IMG/VR virus record: IMGVR_UViG_3300009149_004752
Coordinates: 1-36,901 of that record
Reading direction: 5' to 3' (one strand)
Source: a virus
Length of the DNA: 36,901 bases
Below the pieces are notes generated by a model, which was not told the origin of the DNA, did no database searches, and worked only from the letters and a program-made list of their open reading frames with translations. The position numbers and the translations under genes are program-made. This document shows positions 1-23,306 of this stretch, piece after piece. Positions within the stretch are counted from its first letter, which is position 1. Each line of letters starts with the position of its first letter.

Positions 1-315
1 CCGGCAAAAGCGGCTCCAGCGAAGGCTGCTCCAGCGAAGGCTGCTCCAGCGAAGGCTGCTCCAGCGAAGGCTGCTCCAGCGAAGGCACCGGCGAAGGCTG
101 CTCCCGCAACGGCTCCGCTCACCAGGACCCAGGCAGCCGGCATGGCCATCAAGGAGTGTTCGTCAATTGCGAAGGCAGTTGCACGTACTGATGCACTCTT
201 CGTGAAGGCCGGAGGAGGTTCCAACGACAAGGAGAGCCGCTACGCAGTGAATGTAGCCGTCAAGGTGCTGGAGGGCTTCGGCGCAATCCAAGTGGACGGT
301 GACTCCATAAAGTGA
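1..315 (+). CDS. Partial Lys/Ala/Pro-repeat protein (5' end outside window)
   Basis: The reading frame is open from base 1 to the TGA at 313-315, giving 104 visible residues; the start lies outside the window. Residues 1 to about 40 are a low-complexity PAKAA repeat, the composition of histone H1-like or linker tails that bind nucleic acid. The last 60 residues look globular (MAIKECSSIAKAV..., ending FGAIQVDGDSIK) and are not recognised. The next gene can start at the GTG overlapping this stop codon, so the two are probably co-transcribed. A role in DNA binding is inferred from the basic repeat only; the repeat could equally be a flexible linker. Confidence 0.6.
   Translation, partial: PAKAAPAKAAPAKAAPAKAAPAKAAPAKAPAKAAPATAPLTRTQAAGMAIKECSSIAKAVARTDALFVKAGGGSNDKESRYAVNVAVKVLEGFGAIQVDGDSIK
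16..87 (+). repeat. 15-bp tandem repeat coding for PAKAA
   Basis: Four identical copies of the unit ccagcgaaggctgct run from 16 to 75. A shortened copy follows (76-87) and degenerate copies lie on both sides. The unit is in frame with the partial gene and encodes Pro-Ala-Lys-Ala-Ala. Nucleotide identity between copies, not just amino acid identity, suggests recent expansion by slippage. Confidence 0.9.
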
Positions 316-350
316 CCGTGTACTCCTCGGCACTAAGGGTAAGGGGTGAT

Positions 351-1349
351 ATGCTGTATTGCCCCTTACCCTTGAGCATTGATAGCTATTGGACGTGTGA
401 ACCGAACTGTGCTCATTGCTATTCACGACGGTTGAACCGCACTTGGGGAGACGACTTCCGGATGGCTGATGTGGAAGCAGTGGAGAAACGCCTACTATCC
501 AACCAGGGCAGTTCTCCTCTCTCACGAGCCCTTCAACAGCGCAAGACCATCCGAGTCGGGAACAGATCCGATCCGTTTCAGGAATGTGAGATTGAGCATC
601 AGGTATCCTCAAGACTGATACAGTTTCTCATGGCGCATAAATGGGACACTGTGATCAAGACCAAGTACCCCCAACGGGCATGGGATATGACAGGATTAGG
701 GAAGCATTGCATTCTCATGGCTGAGGTAACAGTAGGATTGGAAGAGGACTGGGAGATGTTTGAGTACCGGAAAACAGAGAATCCTCTGAGCCAGATACAG
801 ACGCTGGCCCAGGCACAACAGGCCGGATTCCGTGTTGGTGTTACTGGAGAGCCCTTCATTCCTGGGTATCATACTGTAGAGCAGTTCCGGGACGTCCTCA
901 AGCTGCTCAAGTCCCATGGCCTCCAGAGATACAATGTGTACAATCTTCATCTCAATGATCTGGTAGCGAAGAACCTCCACGCACTTGGCCTCGACATTGA
1001 GCGGATATGGTATATGAATCAGGACAAGCCTTGGCGCCGGATCTTGAGACAGCTGCTGGAAGCAGCCGACCAATATGATGTGATACTCGGCAACCCGGAC
1101 TTCGTCAACAGTGGATGGCTTTATAAGGAACGGGCTAACACCTGTTGCGGTCTGGATGTTCAGAATCCATGCACATTCAACACTCATCATTTCAAGCTGG
1201 CGATACAGGACGGCCGGGACCCATTGGAATTGTGGGATGGTGTAGGAGATTACAATGCTGGTATTGCAGTCCTGGACGGCTCCGCGACAGACAAATACAC
1301 AATGAAAGATGTTGTTGAGGAAGAGAGTGATGGTATCCAATTGCTTTGA
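351..1349 (+). CDS. Radical SAM protein, SplB-like, first of two
   Basis: This is a 332-residue protein with the radical SAM cluster motif CEPNCAHCY (CX3CX2C) near its N-terminus, so it should bind a [4Fe-4S] cluster and cleave S-adenosylmethionine. The following segment (IRVGNRSDPFQ, then TVIKTKYP) resembles the spore photoproduct lyase / Rv2578c-like branch. Near the C-terminus NTCCGLDVQNPC holds three more cysteines that could ligate a second cluster. I chose ATG 351 because AAGGGG sits a few bases upstream; a GTG at 312 overlapping the previous stop would add 13 residues. The gene overlaps the next one by about 20 bases. The substrate is unknown. The neighbouring PLP enzyme and second radical SAM protein suggest base or nucleotide tailoring rather than photoproduct repair, which is inference. 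Confidence 0.75.
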   Translation: MLYCPLPLSIDSYWTCEPNCAHCYSRRLNRTWGDDFRMADVEAVEKRLLSNQGSSPLSRALQQRKTIRVGNRSDPFQECEIEHQVSSRLIQFLMAHKWDTVIKTKYPQRAWDMTGLGKHCILMAEVTVGLEEDWEMFEYRKTENPLSQIQTLAQAQQAGFRVGVTGEPFIPGYHTVEQFRDVLKLLKSHGLQRYNVYNLHLNDLVAKNLHALGLDIERIWYMNQDKPWRRILRQLLEAADQYDVILGNPDFVNSGWLYKERANTCCGLDVQNPCTFNTHHFKLAIQDGRDPLELWDGVGDYNAGIAVLDGSATDKYTMKDVVEEESDGIQLL

Positions 1350-2148
1350 ATGTCTGGATACTCCCATTGAGGAGTACCAGGGGATCTTTGTGAAGCGCGA
1401 AGATCTCTGTGCTCCTTCGGATGCGCCACCCTTCAGCAAGATTCGAGGACTGATGAAGCATCTAGAACAGCTGAAAGAGGAAGGGGTTGAGGGAGTTGCC
1501 TATGTGGAGACTTCTATCAGTATGGCTGGATGGGGGGTGGCGTGGGCTTGCTTCCAATTAGGTTTGAAATGCTTGATATTCAATCCAGTGTACAAAGTCC
1601 CCATCTCACTGTTGTTATTCCACCGTAGCCAGTGGAAACAGTGGAAAGCGGAGATTATAGATGTGCCCGCAGGACGAGCGAAAGTGAACTATTACAAAGC
1701 TCGGCGGCAAATCCCTGCAGGGTATCGTCTGCTCCCATTAGGATTGCCATTGAATGAGACCATAGCAGAGACACATGCTGTGGCGGAGAAATGTCTGGAA
1801 CCGTATCGCAGTATCGTTGTATGTGTGGGGAGTGGGACTATTGCAGCTGGACTGTTCCAAGCGACCCAACCAGGGCAGACTTTGTATGGAGTATTGAGCC
1901 GTTCTGGGGATATGACAGTCAAGCGAAAGCACATCACATATGGGTCCCTCTTCTCTCACATCACCAGAGGGGATCTCCAATTGATTGATATGGGGTGGGA
2001 GTATTCCGCTTACTGCGGGACTCCGGTGCCCTTCCCCTGCCATCCCTACTACGATGCGAAAGCATGGGAATGGTTGAGAGACAACAAGGAACGAATCCAG
2101 CTGCCAGTGTTGTTCTGGAACATTGGTGCGGAAGGAAAGAAGGAATGA
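1330..2148 (+). CDS. Fold-type II PLP-dependent enzyme (ACC deaminase / tryptophan synthase beta-like)
   Basis: The 272-residue product resembles the fold-type II pyridoxal-phosphate family. VKREDL followed by PPFSKIRG matches the region around the Schiff-base lysine in ACC deaminase and D-cysteine desulfhydrase (usual form GGNKxR). GSGTIAAGL matches the glycine-rich phosphate-binding loop (GSGGT). A segment like the SNHA substrate loop is replaced by ETSISMAGWGVAWA, so substrate specificity has probably changed. ATG 1330 is preferred because GAGGAAGAGAG precedes it; ATG 1309 is the alternative. The protein is shorter than typical ACC deaminases. It lies between two radical SAM genes with overlapping ends, implying a shared pathway. 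Which amino-acid-like substrate it handles cannot be read from the sequence. Confidence 0.65.
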   Translation: MVSNCFECLDTPIEEYQGIFVKREDLCAPSDAPPFSKIRGLMKHLEQLKEEGVEGVAYVETSISMAGWGVAWACFQLGLKCLIFNPVYKVPISLLLFHRSQWKQWKAEIIDVPAGRAKVNYYKARRQIPAGYRLLPLGLPLNETIAETHAVAEKCLEPYRSIVVCVGSGTIAAGLFQATQPGQTLYGVLSRSGDMTVKRKHITYGSLFSHITRGDLQLIDMGWEYSAYCGTPVPFPCHPYYDAKAWEWLRDNKERIQLPVLFWNIGAEGKKE

Positions 2149-2363
2149 TGACTAAGAAGCTACTGGTGATGACTGAGGAGAAGTGGCAACGGTTCGCTCC
2201 ACCAGAGCAGGACAGGAGCAACACGTATATCAAAGTGTCTGAATTCCGCGCCGCCATGACTGAGGTGGACCTGGACGCAATAGCGAGCGAGTGGCTGGCA
2301 GACGAAACCGACAAGAGCTTCACAGAGATTCTGTTGGCCCACATGGAGGGGAAGGAAGGATGA
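2145..2363 (+). CDS. Small unrecognised protein in the radical SAM / PLP cassette
   Basis: A 72-residue protein beginning MMTKKLLVMTEEKWQRF. It starts at ATG 2145 (or 2148) inside an ATGATGA that overlaps the stop of the PLP gene, with GGAAAGAAGGA just upstream. It ends in a TGA overlapping the start of the second radical SAM gene. This double overlap makes it very likely to be translated and coupled to both neighbours. It is acidic, with no cysteines, membrane segment or recognised domain. It could be an accessory or substrate-carrier subunit for the adjacent enzymes, but that rests on position alone. Confidence 0.6.
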   Translation: MMTKKLLVMTEEKWQRFAPPEQDRSNTYIKVSEFRAAMTEVDLDAIASEWLADETDKSFTEILLAHMEGKEG

Positions 2364-3772
2364 CGGAATACTCAAAACTGCGTGAGACAGTCAGCCGGAT
2401 AGTTCCCGGCCTGCGTCCGTTCTTTGCATCCAGTGGGAAGGTTCAAGCTGTCCAGGAGAAGGGACGAAAGAAGAACTACAGCCAGTTCCATCTGTTGGAG
2501 AATGAGTGGAAGCGCCAGGAACGTCTGCTGAAAACAGAACAGATCAACAGCTTCCTCGAGATCTCCCTGCGGGCTCAGGCGTGCCCGATGCCATTCAACA
2601 TGGACATATGGGATGGACTAGCGTGTCCCTTCGCCTGCATCTACTGCTACGCGAATGCCTTTCGTGCCAGTCTGTACACCGCGTTCTTCGACAATAGCAA
2701 GACGATGGGCTTCCGCCATTGCAATCCAGACTACTACAAACGGGAAATGGACAAGATGCTCCCACTACGGGGAACAGATCCACACAAGTTGTCTGGTATC
2801 CAGAAGGCGTTTGCCTTGGAGATACCAGTGCGGATGGGCATCAGGTTCGAGGACTTCTTGCGTCAGGAGAGGAGAGCCGGCATCAGCTTAGAGATGCTCA
2901 GGTATCTGCGGGACATTGAATATCCTGTGATGATCAACACCAAATCAGACCTGATAGGAGAAGATGACTATGTACGGGCGTTGATGGAGAATCCGGCTGG
3001 AAGTGCTGTCCATATCACCATACTGACGTCTGATGATTCCATCAATGATACGCTTGAGCCCGGAGCGCCGAGGTACGCACGACGTATGGAAGCTGCGAAG
3101 AATCTGATTGATGCTGGTGTGAGAGTCGTTCCTAGAATTGAACCATATCTGTTCTTAGTGAATGACCAACCAGACGAGATCCGCCGATACGCGGAAGATA
3201 TGAAGCGTATAGGGGCTGAACATATCACATTTGATACCTACTCCTACACAGCCAATAACCCTGGGATCCGGCAGGACTTCATCAACCGAGGCTATGACTA
3301 CGATCGTCTGTTCACCGCCGGTTGTGACAGCCAGAAACTAGGGAGCTCTCTTCTGAGTGCATACATGAACATATTCCGGGCATATGGGATCTCCTGCTCT
3401 ACATTCGATCTTGGGAACGTCCCATCCAATGACCAGACTATCTGTTGTGAGGTAGAGGACTGGTTCAAAGGTGGATGGAATTATGGTTGTACAGTGATGG
3501 CAGTTCGTTTCATCACTCAGAACAGAGGAGCCCCGGTAACGTGGAGCCAGTACAAGCAGTGGGTGATGGAGCATGGAGGGTTTCTGACTCAGGCACTGGA
3601 GCGGGAAGTCCATGAATTGTGGAACATAGAAGGTTCCAATCCCGCATACAGTCCTATGTGGGCAGGCGGATTAGTCCCTGTTGGATGGGAGCAAGATGGG
3701 CTTGTGTGGGCGTACCTCCCTGAGACGGATGGACGAGCGGTATTGCTAGAATCATTGGAGGCACGAATATGA
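2360..3772 (+). CDS. Radical SAM protein, SplB-like, second of two
   Basis: The 470-residue protein has the radical SAM motif CPFACIYCYA (CX3CX2C) at about residue 94. The downstream EPGAPRYARRMEAAKNLIDAG and RIEPYLF resemble the SplB / Rv2578c branch. A C-terminal cysteine group (CSTFD..., TICCEVED, NYGC) could hold an auxiliary iron-sulfur cluster. ATG 2360 overlaps the previous stop (ATGA), with GGAAGGA upstream; an open stretch back to 2291 is ignored because it would run deep into the preceding gene. It is longer than and clearly different from the first radical SAM protein, so the two probably catalyse successive steps. The 3' end overlaps the next gene by four bases (ATGA). Confidence 0.75.
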   Translation: MTEYSKLRETVSRIVPGLRPFFASSGKVQAVQEKGRKKNYSQFHLLENEWKRQERLLKTEQINSFLEISLRAQACPMPFNMDIWDGLACPFACIYCYANAFRASLYTAFFDNSKTMGFRHCNPDYYKREMDKMLPLRGTDPHKLSGIQKAFALEIPVRMGIRFEDFLRQERRAGISLEMLRYLRDIEYPVMINTKSDLIGEDDYVRALMENPAGSAVHITILTSDDSINDTLEPGAPRYARRMEAAKNLIDAGVRVVPRIEPYLFLVNDQPDEIRRYAEDMKRIGAEHITFDTYSYTANNPGIRQDFINRGYDYDRLFTAGCDSQKLGSSLLSAYMNIFRAYGISCSTFDLGNVPSNDQTICCEVEDWFKGGWNYGCTVMAVRFITQNRGAPVTWSQYKQWVMEHGGFLTQALEREVHELWNIEGSNPAYSPMWAGGLVPVGWEQDGLVWAYLPETDGRAVLLESLEARI

Positions 3773-4602
3773 AAGTCACTACCAGGATAGAAACCATCTT
3801 TGCCCACGCAGTTGCTATGGATAACCGGGGAATGAAGAACATGATTCATTGCATCGGTTCCAACATCTTCATCGTCAATTTCGATTACAGCATGATGCTG
3901 CGATTCTCATTGCGCAAGAGTGAGACGGTCTTTGCCTCTCCCATTTCCTTCAATGCGAATGACTATGAATCTCCGGACTTCACGTGGTCAGAGAAGGATG
4001 GTGAGATCATCTTCCACACACAAGCCAAGGAGTATGAACGGAAGAAGATATGCCGGGGGAATGCCACAGGACCCAATGCCACAGAGATACGCAAAACCTA
4101 CCATAGGTTGAAGCATGAAGGAGAGGAGAGCCCACTTCTGTTCAATCTCTCCAATGAATGCTGTGGACTTCTGGATGAGGAACTATCTCATGTGGAGATC
4201 TCTGCGGAAGATTCAACACTGATTCTCCGCCAGCGAAATGTGTATACAGGAACAATGGTTGAGGTGAGCAAGAAGGATGATGGACTCATCTCTGTGGACC
4301 AGTTACCAAAGAGCATGGGGCCATTCGCCATGAGGACTCAGGACTTCCTGAGCTTGTTCCTGATCCACCGGTCGCTAGTGTTCATTCCCACTGAGGATTT
4401 CATCCTGGTGAAGGACCAGAAAGAGGACTTTGATGGTGTGATATCTCTGTGTAGGTATGACATGATCATCAATCTTCATGACGATGGAAAGGAGCGTGAC
4501 CATGGGAGGCAAGAGCAGAAAGCAAGGCCAGGTGAGTCGTCGATTGATCGACCGGCTGAAACAGCAGCACGGTTCCATCGAACCAACAAGCAAGAAGGGT
4601 AA
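3769..4602 (+). CDS. Unrecognised protein between radical SAM gene and acyltransferase-like gene
   Basis: A 277-residue protein starting at ATG 3769 in an ATGA overlap with the preceding gene. I recognise no family. The first 230 residues look globular and beta-rich, with many alternating hydrophobic strands. The last 40 residues (after INLHDDG) are basic, polar and probably disordered. The alternating pattern and the phrase DFDGVISLCRYD are loosely reminiscent of sliding-clamp-like folds, and a real sliding clamp lies two genes downstream, but this is too weak to name it. The disordered tail overlaps a possible small gene in another frame (4502-4723). Confidence 0.6.
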   Translation: MKVTTRIETIFAHAVAMDNRGMKNMIHCIGSNIFIVNFDYSMMLRFSLRKSETVFASPISFNANDYESPDFTWSEKDGEIIFHTQAKEYERKKICRGNATGPNATEIRKTYHRLKHEGEESPLLFNLSNECCGLLDEELSHVEISAEDSTLILRQRNVYTGTMVEVSKKDDGLISVDQLPKSMGPFAMRTQDFLSLFLIHRSLVFIPTEDFILVKDQKEDFDGVISLCRYDMIINLHDDGKERDHGRQEQKARPGESSIDRPAETAARFHRTNKQEG

Positions 4603-4723
4603 GGCGAATGCACGAGCAGAGGACCGACACCTACTTGAAACGGATGAGGGAACTGGAGGTTATCCCGAACTTCTGGACAACACAGGAGTATCTAGCAACC
4701 CAAGACGTAAGCCTCAAAAGTGA
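4502..4723 (+). CDS. Possible small basic protein overlapping both neighbours (tentative)
   Basis: ATG 4502 is preceded by AAAGGAG (4488-4494) at a 7-base spacing, a near-ideal ribosome binding site. The frame runs 73 codons and begins MGGKSRKQGQVSRRLIDRL. It overlaps the last 100 bases of the upstream gene, whose tail there looks disordered, and the first 116 bases of the downstream gene. The N-terminal half reads like a real basic protein; the C-terminal half is less convincing. It may be a true overlapping gene, or the ribosome binding site may be chance. Confidence 0.35.
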   Translation: MGGKSRKQGQVSRRLIDRLKQQHGSIEPTSKKGKANARAEDRHLLETDEGTGGYPELLDNTGVSSNPRRKPQK

Positions 4724-5372
4724 CGGAGAGGTGATGTGGATTCAGGAAGATGAATGGGCTGTGTTCCCTCCGTTGCCGCTCCGATCTGCCTCTTTACAGG
4801 GAATGAAGTGCCCTCCAATGAAGATATGGAGTGACTTCACCAACTTCTCTGTAGGGGCCGAGATGGAGTTCCTGGACTGGGAATACACCTATGACTCAAG
4901 CCGGTTTCAGGATCTGAGCGGAGGCCGATGGCGAATGTTCCGCAAGAACTCACGCAAATGGCCTCAAGCGAATACAGGATGGCAGTATTCACACATCATC
5001 CCGAGTGAGATGGACATTGAGAAGTTGTTGACGAAATGGCTGGAAGGAAAGGCAGAAGAAACCATTCAGGATAGTGAAGCCCTGTTGAGCTTCGTCTTCC
5101 ACGGGACCCGGCGTGGATTCCTGTTTCGTGACAGTGAATTGGTAGGGATGAATGTGTGGGATTCATATGAGCCTTATCTGATGTACAGGTATTGTATTGT
5201 GGATCCTGATGAACCGTTTCTGGATGAGTTCTGTAGGTTGCTGTTCTATCAGAGTGTTCCCAACTACATGGTGATAGACGGTGGGACACTGGGTCATCCA
5301 GGACTGGAGAGGTTCAAGGACAAACTCCTTCCTGTCAAGAAGCGTGCAGTATATTCAAGAATCATCCCCTAG
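4608..5372 (+). CDS. GNAT-fold acyltransferase-like protein (DUF2156 / FemX-like)
   Basis: A 254-residue protein starting at ATG 4608 after AAGGGTAAGG. Two regions resemble phosphatidylglycerol lysyltransferase C-terminal (DUF2156) and FemX-like GNAT proteins. The middle has SSRFQDLSGGRWRMFRKNSRKW, where that family has a basic LxGKKxxxKRN stretch. The end has IDGGTLGHPGLERFKDKL followed by LPVKKRAVY, like the family's closing glycine-leucine-phenylalanine-lysine motif. Such proteins move aminoacyl or acyl groups. No membrane segments are present, so a lipid target is unlikely. Its place just after the radical SAM / PLP genes suggests it could attach an acyl group to a modified base or nucleotide, which is inference. 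A good ribosome binding site for the sliding clamp follows. Confidence 0.5.
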   Translation: MHEQRTDTYLKRMRELEVIPNFWTTQEYLATQDVSLKSDGEVMWIQEDEWAVFPPLPLRSASLQGMKCPPMKIWSDFTNFSVGAEMEFLDWEYTYDSSRFQDLSGGRWRMFRKNSRKWPQANTGWQYSHIIPSEMDIEKLLTKWLEGKAEETIQDSEALLSFVFHGTRRGFLFRDSELVGMNVWDSYEPYLMYRYCIVDPDEPFLDEFCRLLFYQSVPNYMVIDGGTLGHPGLERFKDKLLPVKKRAVYSRIIP

Positions 5373-5400: not shown

Positions 5401-6426
5401 ATGAAAATCAACAAGGCAGAACTACAGAATGCATTAGAGGCAGTCCGTCCAGGACTGGCCAACAGGGAAACGATAGAGCAAAGCACCAGCTTTGCGTTCT
5501 ATGGAGACCGGGTGGTGACCTACAACGATGAGATCAGCATCTCCCATCCTGTGAAAGGAATGGACGTAACAGGAGCGATCAAAGCACAGACACTCTATGC
5601 GTTCCTCAACAAGGTGCAGAAGGAGGAGATTGACATTGAATGGGGAGAGAACCAGGTGCTCATCAAGGCCGGACGGTCCAAGGCGGGCATAACGCTTGAG
5701 CAAGAGATGAGACTCCCCATTGAAGAGGAGATTGGGAAGATTGGGAAATGGTACAAGGTTCCAAAGGGGTTTTTGGAAGCCTTGAAATTCTGCCACCCAT
5801 GTTGCTCCAAGGACATGAGCCGTTCTGTGCTGGCCTGCGTCCATGTAGAGGGTAAGAAGGTGGAGGCTTCCGACTCCTACCAGATTGCTATTTACACGCT
5901 GGATGAGGATATGCCCACAAATGGATTCCTGATTCCAGCATCATCCGTCCGGGAACTGATACACTATGACATCAAGGATGTTGCCGCAGGGGAAGCCTGG
6001 GTTCATTTCCGGACAGAGCAAGGAACCGTGTTCTCCACCAGAATCCTCAACAACACATTTCCCGACACCAGCAAGCATATGAAGGTGACTGGGGAAGCCT
6101 TCAGTTTCCCGGATGATACCAATCAGATACTTGAGCGTGCCACTGTCTTTTCAATGAAAGACACGCATGTTGGTGGGGACTTCCCTGTTGTGACGATTGG
6201 AATCAAAGACAAGCGGATGAAGATTGCTGCCGAGAATGAATATGGCTGGTTTGAGGAGGCTGCCCGCGTGAAGTACGATGGGGCACCTGTCACGTTCAAG
6301 ATCGGTGTGGAGTTCCTGACCAATATGTCTGGCAAGCTCCCGAGTTGCATCATTGGGAAGAACAAGATTCGATTCAGCGGGGGGAAGTGGGAACATGTAG
6401 TGGCCATGTTGGCCGAAACAGAATGA
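5401..6426 (+). CDS. dnaN: DNA sliding clamp (DnaN-like beta clamp)
   Basis: The 341-residue product has the length and layout of a bacterial-type beta clamp. An N-terminal MKINKAELQNALEAVRPGLANRETIEQ leads into a long run of amphipathic strands, with domain-like segments at about residues 1-110, 115-225 and 230-341. The motif VEASDSYQIA matches the clamp signature around ATDGHRLA in the second domain. AGAGGAGGT lies nine bases before ATG 5401, which decides the start over upstream in-frame codons. It should encircle DNA and hold the phage polymerase. The clamp loader encoded at 11353-12291 is the likely partner. Confidence 0.8.
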   Translation: MKINKAELQNALEAVRPGLANRETIEQSTSFAFYGDRVVTYNDEISISHPVKGMDVTGAIKAQTLYAFLNKVQKEEIDIEWGENQVLIKAGRSKAGITLEQEMRLPIEEEIGKIGKWYKVPKGFLEALKFCHPCCSKDMSRSVLACVHVEGKKVEASDSYQIAIYTLDEDMPTNGFLIPASSVRELIHYDIKDVAAGEAWVHFRTEQGTVFSTRILNNTFPDTSKHMKVTGEAFSFPDDTNQILERATVFSMKDTHVGGDFPVVTIGIKDKRMKIAAENEYGWFEEAARVKYDGAPVTFKIGVEFLTNMSGKLPSCIIGKNKIRFSGGKWEHVVAMLAETE

Positions 6427-6436
6427 GGATGCGCTG

Positions 6437-7666
6437 ATGCGAGGATTCTTTGAGAAGACAGCCACACAGCTCCCTTATCGGTCAGAGAAGGGCATCCACT
6501 CCTGCGCTTCCTGCGGGCTCTACAAGTCTGCACACTCACCAAAGATGGAGCCATACGGAGCCTGTGAGAAGGGAATCATGGTGATTGGAGAAGGACCTGG
6601 GGAAGATGAGGACCGTAAGGGTAGGCCATGGCAAGGCAGAACGGGTCATGTCCTCCAGCAGCAGTACACACGTCTGGGCATTGACCTGTTCCGAGACTGT
6701 GTCAGCTTGAACGCAGTCAACTGCCGTCCTGTTGACAAGAAGGGCTTCAACCGACCCCCGACGGAGTATGAGATCGCATGCTGCCGTCAGAAAGTCATCG
6801 ATGCCATAGCCCAGTACAAGCCAGGAATGATAATGCTCCATGGGGCAGGTGCCCTCTCTTCTCTGATTGGCTACAAGTGGAAGAAAGACCTGGGAGGCGT
6901 GATGAAGTGGCGGGGTTGGACGATACCAGATAGAGAGTACGGAGCATGGCTCTGCCCCACATTTCACCCATCCTACGTGGAACGGCAGGAAGAGGACAAT
7001 GAGGTTGCTATCATCTGGGAGAGGGACATCCAGCGAGCCTTCGAGAAGGTGGGGAAGCCGTTTCCATTCTCAGCAGATGAGGAACAGCGAATCATCGTGT
7101 CTGAGAACCCAGGAGACGTCCTGCCGATGCTTCTCAAAGAAGCTCCGCCTTTGATGACTATTGACATTGAGACGACCGGACTGAAACCCTACAACAAAGC
7201 AGAACATCAGATCGTTGCCATCTCATTCTGTTTTGATGTCAACAGAGCCTACGCGATCCCCTTTCCCACGGAGAAGCGGCATCTGGGACTATTGAAACGC
7301 ATCCTAACGAATCCTAATGTGGGCAAGATCGCAGCCAACATGAAGCATGAGGATAACTGGCTGAATGTACTGCATGGAATCGAAGTGAACCCATGGGCGT
7401 TCGACACGATGCAGGCTGCACACGTACTGGATAACCGCCCCGGCATCACAGGTCTGAAATTCCAGGCATACATTCAGTTTGGTGTTCTGGGATATGATGA
7501 AGAGGTCAGTCCTTATCTGCACAGCTCTGCTCCCAACATACCAAATAGGATCCTGGAGTTGACCAGAGATAAGGACTCATTCAGAAGGCTATTACTCTAC
7601 TGTGGGATGGACAGCCTGCTTGAGTTCCGGCTCGCGGAGCTTCAGATGAAGGAGATGGGATGGTAA
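6437..7666 (+). CDS. Family 4 uracil-DNA glycosylase fused to a DnaQ/Pol I-type 3'-5' exonuclease
   Basis: This 409-residue protein joins two enzymes. Residues 1 to about 200 are a family 4 uracil-DNA glycosylase: CASC at 23-26 plus C96 and C115/116 fit the iron-sulfur cluster ligands, GEGPGEDED...GRPWQGRTG is the uracil-pocket motif, and FHPSY (176-180) is the second catalytic motif. Residues about 235-409 are a DEDD exonuclease: TIDIETTGL (D243, E245), NMKHED (D306) and YCGMD (Y388, D392) are the Exo I, II and III motifs. The polymerase at 9946-11349 lacks an exonuclease domain, so this protein probably supplies its proofreading and removes uracil from the template. It starts ten bases after the clamp gene. 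Confidence 0.85.
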   Translation: MRGFFEKTATQLPYRSEKGIHSCASCGLYKSAHSPKMEPYGACEKGIMVIGEGPGEDEDRKGRPWQGRTGHVLQQQYTRLGIDLFRDCVSLNAVNCRPVDKKGFNRPPTEYEIACCRQKVIDAIAQYKPGMIMLHGAGALSSLIGYKWKKDLGGVMKWRGWTIPDREYGAWLCPTFHPSYVERQEEDNEVAIIWERDIQRAFEKVGKPFPFSADEEQRIIVSENPGDVLPMLLKEAPPLMTIDIETTGLKPYNKAEHQIVAISFCFDVNRAYAIPFPTEKRHLGLLKRILTNPNVGKIAANMKHEDNWLNVLHGIEVNPWAFDTMQAAHVLDNRPGITGLKFQAYIQFGVLGYDEEVSPYLHSSAPNIPNRILELTRDKDSFRRLLLYCGMDSLLEFRLAELQMKEMGW

Positions 7667-8517: not shown

Positions 8518-8838
8518 GTGAAACTCATCTATGTAGCAGGGCCGTACACTGCACCAACCTCGGCTGGTGAATTCAACAACATCATGCAGGCGCGGGCCAA
8601 GGGCCTTGCACTGATTAAGAAGGGATACGCTGTGATTATCCCTCACTTGAATTCAATGTTCATGCCAGTAACACGCGGAGAAATCATGTCAGTTGACCTT
8701 GAAATCCTGAGTAGGTGTGACGCCATCTACCTGTTGAAGGACTGGCAGGATTCCAAGGGTGCCATCCAAGAGAGGCAGTTTGCCGCGTCGCATGGCCTGA
8801 CGGTTTATGTAGAAGGCGTGAATGACCCACTTGACTGA
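8518..8838 (+). CDS. DUF4406 / nucleoside 2-deoxyribosyltransferase-like protein
   Basis: The 106-residue product starts at GTG 8518 after AAAGGAATGGA. YVAGPYTAPT at the N-terminus, HLNSMF, then LSRCDAIYLLKDWQDSKGA and a final QERQFAASHGL match the nucleoside 2-deoxyribosyltransferase superfamily (DUF4406 branch): a nucleotide-binding Rossmann-like fold with a catalytic glutamate usual in the GAxxE segment. Family members exchange or hydrolyse the base of a deoxynucleoside. Here it might supply, remove or remodel a modified nucleotide, in line with the methyltransferases around it and the tailoring cassette upstream; that link is inference. Its end overlaps the start of the cytosine methyltransferase gene. 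Confidence 0.7.
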   Translation: MKLIYVAGPYTAPTSAGEFNNIMQARAKGLALIKKGYAVIIPHLNSMFMPVTRGEIMSVDLEILSRCDAIYLLKDWQDSKGAIQERQFAASHGLTVYVEGVNDPLD

Positions 8839-9949
8839 AGGAATGTTGACCCATGTTGACCTGTTTTCAGGTATTGGTGGGTTCAGCCTTGCTGCAGAAT
8901 GGGCTGGATACACGACAGTCTTATTTGTGGAGAAGGACAAGTATTGTCAGGCTGTATTACAGAAGCACTGGCCGAACGTACCCATCATAGGAGATATACG
9001 CGATGTCAATGAAGAGACTGTTGCACACGCCTACTCAGAAGGCCAACCAGATGTCTCCGTCAATGAAGGAACGGGACGCAGGCAGTTGGATGAGAACAGA
9101 GACGGAGCTGGACTCCCCACAATCGACCTTCTTACGGGCGGTTTTCCCTGTCAGCCCTTCTCTGTTGCCGGGCGGAGAGGCGGCAAGGATGACGACCGTT
9201 ACCTCTGGCCGGAGATGCTGCGTGTTATTGCACTCCTCAAGCCCCGTTGGGTGCTTGCTGAGAACGTTGCTGGAATCATCAACATGGCACTCGACGACGT
9301 GCTATCTGACCTGGAAGGCGAGGGGTACGAAACGGGGACGGTTGTACTTCCAGCTTGTGCCGTCAACGCCCCACACCGAAGGGACAGGGTGTGGATTGTG
9401 GCCCACTGCGACGACGGACTCAGCCAGCGACAGGAAGGGCAAGTACAAGCAGGGAGGAACACCGTTGACGTTGGCCATGAAGATGTGGCCGACACCGACA
9501 GTGGCAGACGCAGGACACCCGGGAAGAATCAAGTTAAAGAAGGGGCAGCAAGTCCATTTATCAGAGGCTATACGGATGCTGCCGACACCAGCAGCACGGG
9601 ACTGGAAGGATTGCGGGGACTTCACAGTACACCCAGAGAAGTCAAAGCTAGTTCACAGCATAGGGGGGGAGCTGAATCCAGATTGGGTAGAGCTCTTGAT
9701 GGGCTACCCGAAAGGTTGGACCGAGGTTGGGATGAGAGTTGGGAAAGCAAAACACCAAGGGTCTCGGAAGTCCGTAAACCAGACAGAAACAACAGGCTCA
9801 AATGCCTCGGGAACGCCATCGTTCCGCAGGTTGCGTACGAGATCTTGAAGGGGATAAGACTGACGGAGATCATGATACATGAAGGCCGTTGTGACATGAC
9901 GAAGAAAGGTGCCTTCCTCAGAAGAACCAAATATCCTACTCTACTATGA
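8822..9949 (+). CDS. dcm: DNA cytosine-C5 methyltransferase
   Basis: A 375-residue protein with the C5-cytosine methyltransferase motifs in order: DLFSGIGG (13-20, SAM binding), GGFPCQPFS with catalytic Cys110, AENV (146-149), RRDRVW (about 186-191) and the closing GNAIVPQVAYEI. A 35-residue polar insert lies between the third motif and PCQPFS. The target-recognition region (about 195-330) is rich in ADTDS-type phrases and ends in ESRLGRALDGLPERLD, a common ending in phage relatives. ATG 8822 is used, with AAGG upstream; ATG 8843 would remove seven residues. A 281-codon frame overlaps most of the gene (see 9003-9848). It probably methylates phage DNA against host restriction. The stop overlaps the polymerase start (ATGA). 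Confidence 0.85.
   Translation: MTHLTEGMLTHVDLFSGIGGFSLAAEWAGYTTVLFVEKDKYCQAVLQKHWPNVPIIGDIRDVNEETVAHAYSEGQPDVSVNEGTGRRQLDENRDGAGLPTIDLLTGGFPCQPFSVAGRRGGKDDDRYLWPEMLRVIALLKPRWVLAENVAGIINMALDDVLSDLEGEGYETGTVVLPACAVNAPHRRDRVWIVAHCDDGLSQRQEGQVQAGRNTVDVGHEDVADTDSGRRRTPGKNQVKEGAASPFIRGYTDAADTSSTGLEGLRGLHSTPREVKASSQHRGGAESRLGRALDGLPERLDRGWDESWESKTPRVSEVRKPDRNNRLKCLGNAIVPQVAYEILKGIRLTEIMIHEGRCDMTKKGAFLRRTKYPTLL
9003..9848 (+). CDS. Long overlapping frame inside dcm with methyltransferase-family phrases (tentative)
   Basis: This frame, +1 relative to dcm, is open for 281 codons without a stop. ATG 9003 is preceded by AGGAG (8989-8993) at nine-base spacing. The first 90 codons look like noise. From about 9290 onward the translation has phrases I recognise from phage cytosine methyltransferase C-termini: LTWKARGTKRGRLYFQL, STPHTEGTGCGLWPT, MWPTPTVADA and ELNPDWVELLMGYPKGW. 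The main dcm frame also has familiar family phrases over exactly the same bases. Either both frames are used, or relatives have switched frame during evolution. Expression of this frame here is unproven. Confidence 0.35.
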   Translation: MSMKRLLHTPTQKANQMSPSMKERDAGSWMRTETELDSPQSTFLRAVFPVSPSLLPGGEAARMTTVTSGRRCCVLLHSSSPVGCLLRTLLESSTWHSTTCYLTWKARGTKRGRLYFQLVPSTPHTEGTGCGLWPTATTDSASDRKGKYKQGGTPLTLAMKMWPTPTVADAGHPGRIKLKKGQQVHLSEAIRMLPTPAARDWKDCGDFTVHPEKSKLVHSIGGELNPDWVELLMGYPKGWTEVGMRVGKAKHQGSRKSVNQTETTGSNASGTPSFRRLRTRS

Positions 9950-11349
9950 ACAGGATTGAGAGAAATATGAGAACCAAAGCCACCACAGTAGATGCCTATC
10001 GATTGATTCATGAAGGCATCCTTGCACTTGCCCGAGCGGAGCGCCAAGGCTTCCGGATTGATATTGAATACTGCGAGAAGAAGCGGGAGTCACTGACCCG
10101 GAAGATTGCGCACAATCAGCAGAGAGTTGAGGACACCAAGCTCTACCGCCGGTGGGCTCACATCTATGGAACAAAGACCAACATATACAGCAACCACCAG
10201 CTTGCCCGTATCCTCTACCAGGTGTTGAAGATTGAGCCTCCGAAGATGACGGAGAAGGGCGTGGAGGGAGCCACTGATGAAGAGTCCCTAGCTCAGATTG
10301 ATATGCCCGAATTGAAGTTGATACTACAGATGCGGAAGCTGGTGAAGATTCGGGATACATACCTGGGTGCGTTCATCAGGGAATCAAACGATGGATGGAT
10401 ACACCCAGTGTTTCATCTCCATACCGTCCGTAGCTATCGCTCCAGCAGTTCAGATCCGAACTTCCAGAACATCCCGAAACGAGACGCGGAAGCGATGGAG
10501 ATCTGCCGCCGGGCCATCTACCCTCGACTGGGGCATATGTTGGTGGAGATGGACTTTGCATCCCTTGAAGTGATGATCAGTGCATGCTATCACAAGGATC
10601 CCACCATGCTCAAATACCTCCGGGATAAGCAATCAGACATGCACGCAGATATGGCAGCGCAGATATTCAAGATGGAAACCATTGACCGAAGCCTACCTTC
10701 TCATTACATACTGCGACAGGCTGCCAAGAACGGGTTTGTGTTCCCACAATTCTATGGGGATTACTACGGCAACAATGCGGTCGGCATTGCTTCCTGGGTG
10801 GAGCTGCCTCAGAGCAGATGGAAGAAGGGACAGGGCATCCTCCTCCCAGACGGGTCAAGCATATCTGACCATCTCATGATGAACGGGCTGCATTCATATA
10901 ATCAGTTCGTCGAGCATATGAAGGGTGTGGAAGAGTCCTTTTGGGGACAGCGATTCACACGATACAACCAATGGCGTAAGGCCTGGGTCAAGAAGTATCG
11001 ACGGCTGGGCTATCTGGAAATGCTCACTGGGTTCACATTCTCCGGAGTGATGAGAAAGAATGAGATTATCAACTATCCGATGCAGGGGACCGCCTTTCAT
11101 TGTCTGTTGTACACGTTCATTGAACTGGACAAAATGATGCGGGATGAAGGATGGGATTCGAGGCTTGTAGGCCAGATTCACGACTCAATCCTGATGGATG
11201 TCCATCCAGAAGAGCTCCCACGAGTTGAGCAGGCTATCCGTATGATAGTGAAGGAAATGCTGCCAGCAGCATGGAAATGGATTATCGTCCCATTGGACGT
11301 TGAGATCGAACGTTATGAGATTGACCAGCCCTGGGTCAAGAAAGGATGA
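9946..11349 (+). CDS. Family A DNA polymerase, polymerase domain only
   Basis: The 467-residue protein is a Pol I-type polymerase without the 5' nuclease and 3'-5' exonuclease domains. Palm and finger motifs are visible: RSYRSSSSDPNFQNIP where Pol I has TGRLSS...NLQNIP; motif A LVEMDFASLEV (D203); motif B RQAAKNGFVFPQFYG (R257, K261, Y270); motif C GQIHDSILMD (D413, with Ser in place of the usual Glu after HD). The second catalytic aspartate is present, so it should be active. ATG 9946 overlaps the dcm stop; ATG 9967 is an alternative. Proofreading probably comes from the UDG-exonuclease protein encoded 2.3 kb upstream, and the clamp and clamp loader complete a phage replisome. Confidence 0.85.
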   Translation: MNRIERNMRTKATTVDAYRLIHEGILALARAERQGFRIDIEYCEKKRESLTRKIAHNQQRVEDTKLYRRWAHIYGTKTNIYSNHQLARILYQVLKIEPPKMTEKGVEGATDEESLAQIDMPELKLILQMRKLVKIRDTYLGAFIRESNDGWIHPVFHLHTVRSYRSSSSDPNFQNIPKRDAEAMEICRRAIYPRLGHMLVEMDFASLEVMISACYHKDPTMLKYLRDKQSDMHADMAAQIFKMETIDRSLPSHYILRQAAKNGFVFPQFYGDYYGNNAVGIASWVELPQSRWKKGQGILLPDGSSISDHLMMNGLHSYNQFVEHMKGVEESFWGQRFTRYNQWRKAWVKKYRRLGYLEMLTGFTFSGVMRKNEIINYPMQGTAFHCLLYTFIELDKMMRDEGWDSRLVGQIHDSILMDVHPEELPRVEQAIRMIVKEMLPAAWKWIIVPLDVEIERYEIDQPWVKKG

Positions 11350-11352
11350 GAA

Positions 11353-12291
11353 ATGTCAACTGAAGGGGTGGTACTCCACCTGAAATACCGACCGCAGACC
11401 TTAGATGAGGTGATGGGAAATGAAGATGTTATTGAGGTATTGCGTGCACAGATAAGTGGGAAGCAGGCAATGCCTCGGAGCATTCTTCTCCATGGCCCAA
11501 CTGGATGTGGCAAAACGAGTCTGGCCAGAATAATCGCTCATGGAGTAGGCTGCGGTGAAGCAGATCTGAATGAGATTGATTCTGCCTCCTTCGGGCGTGG
11601 CATTGACACTATCAGAGACATCCGGAAGCAGAGCGCATACCGGCCGCTTGAGGGCAAATGCCGCGTCTGGATACTGGATGAAGTCCACCGGCTGACTGGA
11701 GATGCCCAGAGTGCGTTGTTGAAGGCGTTGGAGGATACGCCTGAGCATGTGTACTACATTCTGTGTACGACAGATCCGCAGAAACTCCTGCCAACAATCC
11801 GGGGCCGGTGCTCTCAACTACAGGTTCAACCGTTGACTGACCGTGAGATGAAGCTGTTGATCCGGAAGGTAGTCAAGGGAGAAGGGGAAACACTGTCGAA
11901 AGAGATCTATGACCAGATTGTACAGGACAGTCTGGGGCATCCTCGGAACGCTCTCCAGATACTCGCACAGGTATTGGCAGTGGATGAGGAAAGCAGATTA
12001 CGGGTGGCAAAGCGTACTGCAGAAATAGAATCCAAAACCATCGAACTATGCAGAGCTCTCACCAACGCTGCTCCATGGAAACAGATTGCCAACATTCTGA
12101 AAGGACTGACAGATGAGGATCCAGAGCAGGTGCGGAGAGCAGTGCTTGGTTATTGCCAGGCAGTCCTCTTGAAGACCGAAGCGCAGAATGATGGCATTGC
12201 TAGTGTGATGCAAGAGTTCTTGGAGCCATTGTACAACACAGGGTTCCCTGGATTAGTTTTCGCCTGCTACAGCACAGTGTTTGGGGAGTGA
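11353..12291 (+). CDS. Clamp loader ATPase (DnaX / RFC small-subunit-like)
   Basis: A 312-residue AAA+ protein beginning with LKYRPQTLDEVMGNEDV, the usual clamp-loader N-terminus. Walker A is GPTGCGKT (48-55), Walker B WILDEVHRL (D109, E110), and the arginine-finger region reads RGRCSQLQV (about 150-158) in place of the common SRC. No zinc-binding cysteine module as in bacterial DnaX is seen, which makes it closer in size to RFC small subunits. It should load the sliding clamp encoded at 5401-6426. ATG 11353 follows AAAGGATGAGAA; the gene starts three bases after the polymerase stop. Confidence 0.85.
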   Translation: MSTEGVVLHLKYRPQTLDEVMGNEDVIEVLRAQISGKQAMPRSILLHGPTGCGKTSLARIIAHGVGCGEADLNEIDSASFGRGIDTIRDIRKQSAYRPLEGKCRVWILDEVHRLTGDAQSALLKALEDTPEHVYYILCTTDPQKLLPTIRGRCSQLQVQPLTDREMKLLIRKVVKGEGETLSKEIYDQIVQDSLGHPRNALQILAQVLAVDEESRLRVAKRTAEIESKTIELCRALTNAAPWKQIANILKGLTDEDPEQVRRAVLGYCQAVLLKTEAQNDGIASVMQEFLEPLYNTGFPGLVFACYSTVFGE

Positions 12292-12294
12292 GGC

Positions 12295-13485
12295 ATGAAA
12301 GCGTACTATCAAGACGGGAAGGCAAGCATATATTGTGGTACGTCTCTTGAAATGGGGTTACCTGACGGGTCTGTGCAATGTGTAGTAACGAGTCCTCCGT
12401 ATTGGGGATTGAGGAAGTATGAGGGAGAGCAGGATTCGGTATGGGGTGGCGACTCTGAATGCGAGCATGAGTGGGGGAGTGAGAATCTCCGAAAGACTGG
12501 CAGGAATGATGGGGATAGGCCACGGCTTTCTGCGGGGAGCTATTCGCCAGGGGGAGAAGCCAAGTATTACGTCTGCAACCAGACTGCCTCACAAGGCTCC
12601 TTCTGTCTCAAATGCGGTGCATGGCGCGGTGCTTTCGGCTTAGAGCCTACTCCCGAACTGTACGTCTCTCACACCGTCCTGTTCCTTCGGGAGATACGGA
12701 GGGTGTTGAAGGACGATGGGGTTGTGTTCTGGAACATCGCGGACTCGTACGCTGGCGGCGGACGCAACAGCGGCAACAGTCTTGCAAACACGAGTGCCAA
12801 GCAACTCACACAGATTCACTCTATGAGTTGCGGCAAGGCCACTGTGCCTGACGGTTTGAAGCCCAAGGATATGTGCCTGATTCCCTTTCGTGTAGCTTTG
12901 GCAGCACAGGCAGACGGCTGGTACGTGAGAAGTGACATCATATGGGCAAAGCCCAACCCGATGCCCGAGAGCGTGAGGGACAGGCCGACGAGTTCATACG
13001 AGCATATCTTCCTGTTCACGAAGTCTCAGCACTACTACTGGGGCCAAGACGCGGTAAGGGAACCTATAAATGGCAATGGTTCTCGGACATTGGGTGACCC
13101 CAAGCTGTTTAAGAGCAACCCTGTTCCTGACGACACTCGAGAATATGATAGGTCTGGCAGGTGCGGCGACCCGTTATCTGGCCGCAACCTCCGTGATGTC
13201 TGGACGATAGCAACGCAACCATCGGGCTTCAAGCACTACGCGGCGTTCCCGCTAGAGATTCCGACTCGGTGTATCAAGGCGGCAACCATGCCCGGCGACA
13301 CGGTACTCGACCCGTTCTGCGGAACGGGGCGAACACTAGAGGCTGCAATACACTTCAACCGCAAGGCCATAGGCTATGATGTGTCGGAAGCCTACTGCGA
13401 TATGGCGACAAGACGCTGCAGGGGCGAAGGAACAGCTGGAAATCAGCAAGGCACAGATGGAACAGTATATCCCAAATTGCTATAG
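12295..13485 (+). CDS. DNA N4-cytosine / N6-adenine methyltransferase (beta class)
   Basis: The 396-residue protein has the catalytic motif TSPPYWGL (32-39) near the N-terminus and the SAM-binding motif DPFCGTGRT near the C-terminus, the beta-class order. A cysteine-rich stretch (ECEHEW, then VCNQTASQGSFCLKCGAW) at about 58-110 may bind zinc and could act in target recognition. SPPY is compatible with either N4-cytosine or N6-adenine methylation. No matching restriction endonuclease gene is visible, so it is probably an orphan enzyme that protects phage DNA. It starts three bases after the clamp loader stop. Confidence 0.85.
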   Translation: MKAYYQDGKASIYCGTSLEMGLPDGSVQCVVTSPPYWGLRKYEGEQDSVWGGDSECEHEWGSENLRKTGRNDGDRPRLSAGSYSPGGEAKYYVCNQTASQGSFCLKCGAWRGAFGLEPTPELYVSHTVLFLREIRRVLKDDGVVFWNIADSYAGGGRNSGNSLANTSAKQLTQIHSMSCGKATVPDGLKPKDMCLIPFRVALAAQADGWYVRSDIIWAKPNPMPESVRDRPTSSYEHIFLFTKSQHYYWGQDAVREPINGNGSRTLGDPKLFKSNPVPDDTREYDRSGRCGDPLSGRNLRDVWTIATQPSGFKHYAAFPLEIPTRCIKAATMPGDTVLDPFCGTGRTLEAAIHFNRKAIGYDVSEAYCDMATRRCRGEGTAGNQQGTDGTVYPKLL

Positions 13486-21104: not shown

Positions 21105-23306
21105 TTAGTAGAAATGCTGTCTCCACCTGGGGTCCTTAGCGAAATTCATCTTATCAAGGACAGTACGCGCCCGGTTAGACAGTTCGATCTGCACGTCCAT
21201 CCGGTTGTTCAGGCTACGTACTATGTGAATGATACGAGTAGCAGCCTCCAGCGACAGCGCCTCATCGATGGCCTTCACCTGATCGCCAAGGCTTACTGCA
21301 TCAGCCAAGAATCCATAGCGCTCTAGGTCTACCAACGAGCCCCCATAACTGACATGTGGGTAGGCGAGCTCACCGAGCAGCCGGACTGCCCATTCAAACA
21401 GGGTGGCAGAGTCGGTGATTGAGACGTCTACTACTTGGGCAGCAGCGAAGTCGTAAAGAGCCTTGGAGGCCAGGTCCTCAAGGTAGTCGACAGCCCCCGG
21501 CAGCGTGTACTCGATATAGAGCAGAGGGGACTTCGTAATTGCCGGTACGAGGTACGAACGTCTTGACTGGTACTCCTCGGTCGTGCGGTAGTCGTGGTCC
21601 TCCCAGAAGATGACCATGGCGTTGCCGCTCTCCCAGCCGACCCTGTCGACCACAGTCTGCACGGCAGCCACCACGTTGCGGGAGTAGACCTGCAGTCCAG
21701 TCCACGCCGGGATGTTGTCCCAGTTGACCTTGGTGGTGAGCGACCTCCCCTCATAATCCCCTATCGTCGAGAACTGGGCTGCGTCGTTGGCATCTTCCAT
21801 GTAGACCTTGCTGTAGACGTCGGAGCCTGAGCCGGGGTCAGCATGTGCGGTCAGCCGGAGCTCGGCGACGAGAATCTCTGCCCCCTGGGGAACGTTGACG
21901 CCGGGGAAGCGGCACGCACCGCCATAGGCTTTGAGATCGTCGTACGGCCAACCTACGCGCCACTGAGTACTGAGCGTGGTACCTCCGAGGCGGAAGCCCC
22001 ACTCGGAGACCGTCGTGTCGTACCACTTCAGTGCTAAATCAGCCACCACCTGCGGCTGAGAGGTCACCATGCCTTTGCCGAGCCTCACTAACGTTTCACC
22101 TTCTCCCGCACCCCAAGCCCAGAGGCGGTTGACCAAGTCGGTATAATCGGAAGACCGGCGCACCCCCATGAGGTTCTTGCCGAGCCTGAGCTGTTGTCCC
22201 ACGTCGGAGCCTATGGTAGTCCGCCACTGAAAGGCACCATCTGAGTCTACATACATATAGCCACCAACAGACTCGTGGAGGCGATTGAGGGCTCCCAGAA
22301 TGGTGTCCTTGGGAACATCAATCGAGCGATTGTCAGTGTAGTCGATAGTGCCCAACGTGATAGGAACCGGATGCTCCTGGAGGGCCAAGAGCTCTGAGAC
22401 AATGGTGTTGGTCGCTTTGTCATCAGCGGAGTAGTCGGTCACCACCTCCTTTTCAAGTTGAGCCAGAAGCCCGATAGCCTCAATGTGGAGGGTGCCCCTA
22501 TGGTGGAGGGGCGACTCAACAAGGAGCATATCAAGGGCCACAGAGGAAGGTGTCCTGGAAACTACGAGCATGTCAAGTGCGATGGTAGGGGCACTCATCA
22601 CACCGAGTGAGACGTCAAGGGCAACAGTGGAAAGCGCAGGACCACAGAGGAGGGCGTCTAGGCCCACCGTCTCAGGGGCTCTGGCGGCAACATGAGTATC
22701 AAGGTCTACATTGTGAGCAACTGTGCCACGAAGCAACGCACTGAGAGCAGCAGTGGGCACAGAAGAGGCATCTGCAAGGATAATGTCCAAGGCCACAGCC
22801 GAGGACTCGACGGTGTTAAGCCGAAGGTCAAGAGCCACGGTCGCAGCATCTATAGCCTCAAGCAGGACATCAAGAGCGACAGACTCCGAATCGGCCTGCT
22901 GCAGCAGTACGTCGAGCGACGGCGCTGTCGTGTATGTTGCGGCCCCTGCCTCGTTGAACTCAAACTCATAGAGCGCAATACTGTGACCCGTGAATGTGCC
23001 ATCATGTACTCTGGCTGCGGATACTGTCTCTGTTGAACCTATCTCAACTGTCTGCCAACTCAACGTTCCAACAAATGCAAGAGATAAGGTATGCCACCCA
23101 CCAGAATAGTAGACGTCAACATAGTCTAGCCAAGCAGCGTAGTACCTGACACTATCACATGATATAGGAGGGTCAATGTTTAGAATCAGCCATTTGGACT
23201 GACCATCATCAGTTGCAGCCGTGCCGTCATTTCCATCATAGGCATAGGTAGGATTAGTCCATCCACTATCAGGGTCTTCGTGACTCGTAGGTGATACCCA
23301 TGCCAT
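21105..23306 (-). CDS. Tail-tip/hub protein, second part, with LDALL repeats and carbohydrate-binding-like domains
   Basis: A 733-residue protein starting at ATG 23306 (AAGGAGATAGAATA upstream). Residues 1-120 look like a discoidin (F5/8C-type) domain. Residues 129-264 are ten 14-residue repeats of the form (S/T)VALDxLLxxxDx. From about 275 the sequence resembles the Gp37-like/Tal tail-hub proteins of siphoviruses (IGLLAQLEKEVVTDYS, SVGGYMYVDSDGAFQW, LVNRLWAWGAGEGE). A jelly-roll-like insert at about 425-605 (VNVPQGAEILVAELRL ... LLYIEYTLPG) resembles carbohydrate-binding modules. The final 120 residues return to hub sequence. It probably forms the tail tip and binds the host surface. The first hub segment seems to lie in the gene upstream. 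Confidence 0.7.
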   Translation of the reverse strand: MAWVSPTSHEDPDSGWTNPTYAYDGNDGTAATDDGQSKWLILNIDPPISCDSVRYYAAWLDYVDVYYSGGWHTLSLAFVGTLSWQTVEIGSTETVSAARVHDGTFTGHSIALYEFEFNEAGAATYTTAPSLDVLLQQADSESVALDVLLEAIDAATVALDLRLNTVESSAVALDIILADASSVPTAALSALLRGTVAHNVDLDTHVAARAPETVGLDALLCGPALSTVALDVSLGVMSAPTIALDMLVVSRTPSSVALDMLLVESPLHHRGTLHIEAIGLLAQLEKEVVTDYSADDKATNTIVSELLALQEHPVPITLGTIDYTDNRSIDVPKDTILGALNRLHESVGGYMYVDSDGAFQWRTTIGSDVGQQLRLGKNLMGVRRSSDYTDLVNRLWAWGAGEGETLVRLGKGMVTSQPQVVADLALKWYDTTVSEWGFRLGGTTLSTQWRVGWPYDDLKAYGGACRFPGVNVPQGAEILVAELRLTAHADPGSGSDVYSKVYMEDANDAAQFSTIGDYEGRSLTTKVNWDNIPAWTGLQVYSRNVVAAVQTVVDRVGWESGNAMVIFWEDHDYRTTEEYQSRRSYLVPAITKSPLLYIEYTLPGAVDYLEDLASKALYDFAAAQVVDVSITDSATLFEWAVRLLGELAYPHVSYGGSLVDLERYGFLADAVSLGDQVKAIDEALSLEAATRIIHIVRSLNNRMDVQIELSNRARTVLDKMNFAKDPRWRQHFY
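22515..22922 (-). repeat. 42-bp (14-residue) LDALL repeat array, about 10 units
   Basis: In the 733-residue tail protein, about ten degenerate units of 42 bp encode V-A-L-D-x-L-L repeats. Units containing LRLNTVES and DTHVAAR occur in the same order and spacing as in the array of the neighbouring gene. The array opens with TTAPSLD and closes with VESPLHH. Confidence 0.85.

Follow-up and report, generated by a model that had tools for sequence, protein, structure and literature searches.

A conserved module of two radical SAM enzymes beside phage replication genes, a candidate route to DNA-base hypermodification

Phage DNA hypermodifications are chemically diverse; most of those described to date build on a hydroxymethyl handle or, as known since 2025, on the carboxymethyl handle of the CmoA/CmoX/CmoY 5-carboxymethylcytosine system (PMC12783734). 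The DNA of phage M6 contains 5-(2-aminoethyl)-deoxyuridine (5-NedU) (PMC6449724). M6-like phages group the genes for a pyridoxal phosphate (PLP) enzyme and a radical S-adenosylmethionine (rSAM) enzyme with hydroxymethylase, kinase, HMUDK_hel, Nmad5 and amino acid:DNA transferase (ADDT) genes, and in the M6 pathway the rSAM enzyme acts as an isomerase and the PLP enzyme as a decarboxylase. In phage Pam3 the PLP and rSAM genes likewise lie beside hydroxymethylase, kinase and ADDT genes (PMC9476957). Here we analyse a gene cassette at positions 312-5372 (plus strand) of the virus record IMGVR_UViG_3300009149_004752 (36,901 bases without end repeats, hereafter the window), in which a relative of the M6 PLP enzyme is encoded between two SplB-like rSAM proteins, rSAM-A and rSAM-B. 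We read this module as replication-coupled DNA-base hypermodification, in which radical chemistry would build an amino-acid-like side chain, probably on thymine, without a phage-encoded entry through 5-hydroxymethyl-deoxyuridine (5-hmdU), and we put the probability of this reading at roughly 55%.

A preliminary description of the window had grouped two rSAM proteins, a PLP enzyme, a 72-residue protein, an unknown protein and an acyltransferase-like protein into one cassette and proposed searching for the same neighbourhood in other phages. Scans of viral contigs recovered the arrangement at dozens of loci, far beyond chance, in about 50 related uncultured viruses, and genome contigs contributed just three metagenome-bin contigs (3.6-13.4 kb). 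After copies with identical C-termini were collapsed, 66 distinct rSAM-B genes remained; downstream counts were made on the 53 loci with at least 4.5 kb of downstream sequence and upstream counts on the 51 whose upstream sequence spans 5 kb or more. Genes for a clamp-fold protein, a small basic protein (MGGKSRK) and a DUF2156 protein were each found downstream of rSAM-B in 51 of the 53 loci, and the gene for the polymerase clamp in 50. Upstream, rSAM-A was present in 44 of the 51 loci, and the other seven carry a divergent rSAM-like gene, in one case with no CX3CX2C motif that could be recognised in the open frame. Every locus having rSAM-A, rSAM-B and DUF2156 genes (45/45) also has the clamp-fold and MGGKSRK genes. 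A DnaB-like helicase gene precedes the module, and the genes for the clamp, a uracil-DNA glycosylase (UDG)-exonuclease and PolA follow it.

While the arrangement held, the extent and membership of the cassette had to be revised (Table 1). The first gene begins not at 351 but at a GTG codon at 312, and relatives share its N-terminal stretch ...RGD.LYCPL with an invariant R11. The conserved MGGKSRK gene, which overlaps both of its neighbours and was present in 34 of the 36 loci that we checked, counting the window, had been overlooked. The 72-residue open reading frame (ORF) was rejected as a member; it has zero homologues across the loci and probably lies outside the module.

The PLP enzyme belongs to fold type II (PF00291, 41.7 bits against a cut-off of 35) and matched PHROG 7093 with E=2e-43. 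It is 36-39% identical to enzymes of M6, YuA and CN1/Bordetella phages (M6: 36% over 92%), with which it shares the invariant catalytic lysine K44 and a C-terminal FPC..YD.KAW...FWNIG stretch. In a phylogenetic tree the PLP enzymes of the module form a sister clade of the M6-type enzymes with support of 100/100. A collection of cultured phages yielded full-length relatives for the PLP enzyme only, and none for rSAM-A, rSAM-B or the DUF2156 protein.

As first described, two different CX3CX2C rSAM proteins with conserved extra cysteines flank the PLP enzyme, and the genes overlap at their ends. Among 29 aligned homologues of rSAM-A, C29/C33/C36 of the CX3CX2C motif and C17, C278 and C279 are invariant and C261 is nearly so; among 25 homologues of rSAM-B the invariant residues are C89/C93/C96, C75, C121, C362 and C363. 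The two proteins are paralogues (hhalign, 276 columns, E=1.6e-12). Their best NCBIfam matches are the SplB-like families rSAM_PA0069, Rv2578c and radical SAM mobile pair protein B, but both score far under the family cut-offs (rSAM-A against rSAM_PA0069: E=5.7e-10) and the genomic context differs. Similarity to the M6-type rSAM is remote (hhalign probability 90-96%, E 1e-6 and 4e-9), tblastn with either protein does not reach M6-like phages, and sequence profile searches of the PDB returned nothing useful.

In several relatives rSAM-B is interrupted at codon 89 or at about codon 96, the first or third cysteine of the CX3CX2C motif (L042 3014-5628, L036 8540-11155, L037 8706-11107, L038 8736-11122, L010 10855-13324 and L120 7760-11119). 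In L036 and L042 the gap contains an ORF that appears endonuclease-like by eye, and the interruptions look like introns or other homing elements inside the catalytic motif. The nearest long relative, L041, has a third rSAM-like gene (11754-13268) between its DUF2156 and clamp genes.

The protein listed as unknown in the preliminary description was correctly placed and can now be given a predicted identity. Because sequence profile searches of the PDB gave nothing useful for it, its fold had to be approached through structure prediction. The AlphaFold2 (AF2) model (pLDDT 83) retrieved clamps in Foldseek and aligned best with RAD9 of the 9-1-1 clamp (VIA Z 17.4, 213 residues, root-mean-square deviation 3.3), followed by PCNA. 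We therefore regard it as a predicted sliding clamp, distinct from the polymerase clamp encoded downstream and putatively forming a ring on DNA. A single-sequence pattern scan of viral_contigs for protein P0006 gave no match, the pattern being too strict, and a profile finds P0006 in nearly all loci. The MGGKSRK protein has a constant basic N-terminus and often, in relatives, an LF[DEGN]-like motif at the C-terminus, present in 29 of 58 sequences against a mean of 3.9 after shuffling. This is presumably a clamp-binding motif.

The last protein of the module had been described as GNAT/DUF2156-like. The family assignment stands, but the protein has the fold of aminoacyl-tRNA-dependent transferases, not that of an ordinary acyltransferase. 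Its model (pLDDT 94.8) matched 2hqy over the whole tandem-GNAT fold (VIA Z 21.9, 250 residues), with further matches to the soluble domain of MprF (Z 15.7), to Sbb17, an aminoacyl-tRNA-dependent peptide synthase (Z 13.2), and to FemX (Z 12.8). The fold is thus common to the full length of the 254-residue protein, whereas identity with MprF, FemX and Sbb17 is just 10-15% and the module protein is phage-encoded beside DNA replication genes. We consider it a putative aminoacyl-tRNA-dependent transferase, a shared fold not being proof of the reaction.

Because the window starts about 300 bp before the module and has no end repeats, absences in the window alone prove nothing, and we examined relatives for the M6-type entry steps. 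The survey covered 76 virus records with the module, some of them near-duplicates, with phage YuA as a positive control that was detected each time. Neither ADDT (PF18724) nor the helical domain of the 5-hmdU kinase, HMUDK_hel (PF18723), was found in any of the 76 records, and the HMUDK_HMUD1 kinase (PF18748) was found in none of 40. Proteins of the thymidylate synthase (TS) family occurred in 3/76 records, and the copy in G009 resembles a true archaeal-type thymidylate synthase. A TS-family dUMP hydroxymethylase was absent from the window and from G012, an apparently complete record that is 73,759 bases long and bears a direct terminal repeat of 123 bases; G012 encodes the PLP enzyme and both rSAM proteins and lacks all of the families named above. 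The lack of the entry families is therefore not just an effect of contig ends, and truncation of the window was rejected as the reason for it. The preliminary description had offered two ways out, a different chemistry or the needed genes beyond the window; these records favour the former and speak against the latter.

Around the conserved core, the remaining genes vary. The PLP gene is optional (24/51 loci), and an aldo/keto reductase occurs in 11 of 45 loci, invariably beside an oxidoreductase dependent on flavin adenine dinucleotide or a methyltransferase-like gene (cluster c16). An amidoligase, a second DUF2156-like protein and CmoA each appear as extras in single loci, and several loci consist of the core alone. 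A PLP decarboxylase, a flavoprotein of the amino-acid-oxidase type and a carbonyl reductase could all act on an alpha-amino-acid side chain, which is our main chemical inference. The homologue of CmoA (carboxy-SAM synthase) lies between rSAM-A and the PLP gene in L017 (8540-9256; TIGR00740, E=3e-40) and in L018 (7448-8161). Its cluster has members in these two relatives only and none beside the window cassette; L017 and L018 may hint at a link to carboxymethyl handle chemistry.

Four features favour DNA as the target: the relation of the PLP enzyme to M6, the position in a replication operon, the presence of a clamp-fold protein and the resemblance of the MGGKSRK C-termini to a clamp motif. 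The first three strengthen the base-hypermodification reading already proposed in the preliminary description. In the mechanism that we propose, the clamp-fold and MGGKSRK proteins would hold the enzymes on newly made DNA. There the two rSAM enzymes would functionalise a base directly, most likely turning the 5-methyl group of thymine into a carbon-linked amino-acid-like side chain, a route that would bypass phage-made, kinase-activated 5-hmdU. The DUF2156/FemX-like protein would draw on aminoacyl-tRNA to supply or add an aminoacyl group. The PLP enzyme of this virus may then decarboxylate the alpha-amino-acid side chain to an amine, as is thought for its M6 relative; in other phages a flavoprotein or methyltransferase-like gene together with the aldo/keto reductase would take its place. 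The product would shield the DNA from host nucleases. We hold only tentatively to the most specific form of this proposal, that the pair of SplB-like rSAM enzymes on a dedicated clamp, with an aminoacyl-tRNA-dependent transferase, builds a carbon-linked amino-acid side chain on thymine by a third route using neither a hydroxymethyl nor a carboxymethyl handle.

Several points weigh against the DNA-base reading. We infer both the DNA target and the chemistry; all carriers of the module that we found are uncultured viruses, and the module is known here from its genes. Aminoacyl-tRNA transferases attach amino acids via the carboxyl group, which is awkward if a decarboxylase later acts on the same residue. 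The sequence of steps is accordingly uncertain, and we are least sure of what the aminoacyl-transferase-like protein does and at which point. Because the rSAM proteins are remote kin of the M6 rSAM, the isomerase role cannot be carried over to them. Searches for alternative entry enzymes (Tet/JBP hydroxylase, aGPT-Pplase3) returned no match, but the positive control was not detected either, and the entry enzymes may be ones that no Pfam model recognises.

Other readings of the module share parts of this evidence. The kinship of the PLP enzyme to those of M6 and YuA, together with a contig end so close upstream, would fit an ordinary M6-type pathway (hydroxymethylase, 5-hmdU DNA kinase, glycine loading by ADDT, rSAM isomerisation and PLP decarboxylation) whose remaining genes lie beyond the contig end. 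The survey described above, with its control detected throughout and one record that looks complete, largely refutes this pathway for the relatives; the rSAM proteins of the module also appear to fall outside the M6 rSAM family, and we think it improbable. Photoproduct lyases or other replication-coupled repair enzymes are suggested by the remote SplB-like similarity of rSAM-A and rSAM-B and by the annotation of YuA-type rSAM proteins as 'DNA repair photolyase', but repair accounts neither for two different rSAM proteins nor for the PLP enzyme, the aminoacyl-transferase fold or the swapping of tailoring enzymes, and we rank it marginally lower still.

Somewhat better placed, though unlikely, are two readings in which polymerised DNA is not the substrate, and we weight them equally. 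The MGGKSRK protein could be the substrate of a maturation resembling that of ribosomally synthesised and post-translationally modified peptides (RiPPs), carried out by the two rSAM proteins and an aminoacyl-tRNA-dependent ligase, with tailoring by the PLP enzyme, the aldo/keto reductase or the flavoprotein. RiPP pathways are known to employ rSAM pairs and aminoacyl-tRNA ligases, and nearly every locus places this conserved short protein beside two rSAM proteins and a FemX-fold transferase. Its N-terminus, however, is constant and basic and its C-terminus clamp-motif-like, we noticed neither a protease nor an exporter next to the module, the PLP homologue comes from DNA-hypermodifying phages, and the genes belong to a replication operon that encodes a clamp-fold protein. 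Alternatively, the module could act on the deoxynucleotide pool or on RNA or tRNA: FemX-fold enzymes use tRNA, and single relatives carry in or near the module CmoA and, by eye, a QueD-like gene, both kin of RNA-modification genes. Yet of the 45 tabulated loci just one has CmoA (which L018 also carries), nearly all loci have a dedicated clamp-fold gene, the module lies between helicase and polymerase genes, and the nearest functional relatives of the PLP enzyme serve pathways that act on DNA.

The genes around the module in the window are listed in Table 1. The truncated upstream gene belongs to cluster c8, with a low-complexity linker, visible direct repeats and a small conserved C-terminal domain; in relatives, the genes that cluster with it lie upstream of rSAM-A and downstream of the DnaB-like helicase gene. 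After the module come the genes for the polymerase clamp, the UDG-exonuclease and the DNA polymerase. The UDG-exonuclease fusion is split from the polymerase domain; it brings a uracil-glycosylase-like domain into the replication machinery of a phage whose pyrimidines are probably modified. Among the replication genes are also two for DNA methyltransferases, one of the C5-cytosine type (8822-9949) and one CcrM-like (12295-13485). Two large neighbouring ORFs on the minus strand (21105-23306 and 23320-25449) have translations with many imperfect ...S.ALD.LL... repeats. Among the relatives, L014 encodes a TS-family protein resembling archaeal thymidylate synthase between its clamp gene (ending at 17179) and UDG-exonuclease gene (starting at 17998). 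Inside the module of L013, from the same virus group, is a gene that by eye is dCMP-deaminase-like (6931-7536), as if dTMP were in demand.

Table 1. Module genes and their neighbours in the window
Feature	Position	Strand	Remarks
Gene upstream of rSAM-A, C-terminal part	1..315	+	Cut by contig end
rSAM-A, SplB-like radical SAM, 345 aa	312..1349	+	CX3CX2C; GTG start 312
PLP enzyme, fold type II (PALP), M6-type	1309..2148	+	Alternative start ATG 1330 possible
72-aa ORF	2145..2363	+	Not conserved
rSAM-B, SplB-like radical SAM, 470 aa, paralogue of rSAM-A	2360..3772	+	Invariant cysteines; hhalign
Predicted sliding-clamp-fold protein (PCNA/9-1-1-like), distinct from polymerase clamp	3769..4602	+	AF2 model, Foldseek, VIA
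MGGKSRK small basic protein, 73 aa	4502..4723	+	Overlaps both neighbours; conserved
DUF2156/MprF/FemX-fold protein, 254 aa, putative aminoacyl-tRNA-dependent transferase	4608..5372	+	AF2 model, VIA
DNA polymerase sliding clamp (processivity factor), downstream neighbour	5404..6426	+	PHROG 947 E=8e-36
Family-4 uracil-DNA glycosylase domain fused to PolI-type 3'-5' exonuclease, neighbour	6437..7666	+	PF03167 72 bits, PF01612 37 bits; TIGR00758 E=4e-23
Family-A DNA polymerase domain, neighbour	9946..11349	+	Phage DNA polymerase matches; conserved beside module

A literature search found no comparable module. Phage DNA hypermodification and the PLP family are already known; as far as the searched literature shows, the core, its clamp and the absence of the hydroxymethyl route are undescribed, and the chemistry stands a real chance of being categorically new. 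Tailoring of the M6 type, kept in a widespread module that lacks those entry steps, would indicate a new way of attaching amino acids to DNA. If our reading is correct, radical SAM enzymes would act on bases by a new chemistry, a clamp would serve modification alone, and the charged tRNAs of translation would be drawn into DNA modification. The module also defines a core gene set that is open to expression and test. With the M6/YuA-type thymidine hypermodification (5-NedU; M6, YuA, SN1, CN1, Pam3) it has in common the PLP family, an adjoining SplB-like rSAM and a phage replication context; in contrast, ADDT and 5-hmdU-kinase families were not detected with it, its two rSAM proteins appear to belong to other families, the PLP enzyme is optional, and clamp-fold, MGGKSRK and DUF2156 genes are added. 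The module differs from the CmoA/CmoX/CmoY system in being radical-SAM-based, and CmoA was not found beside the window cassette, nor was an asparagine-synthetase-like CmoY noticed. Both would nevertheless be phage base modifications that do not start from a hydroxymethyl handle, and in two relatives a CmoA homologue is encoded inside the module itself.

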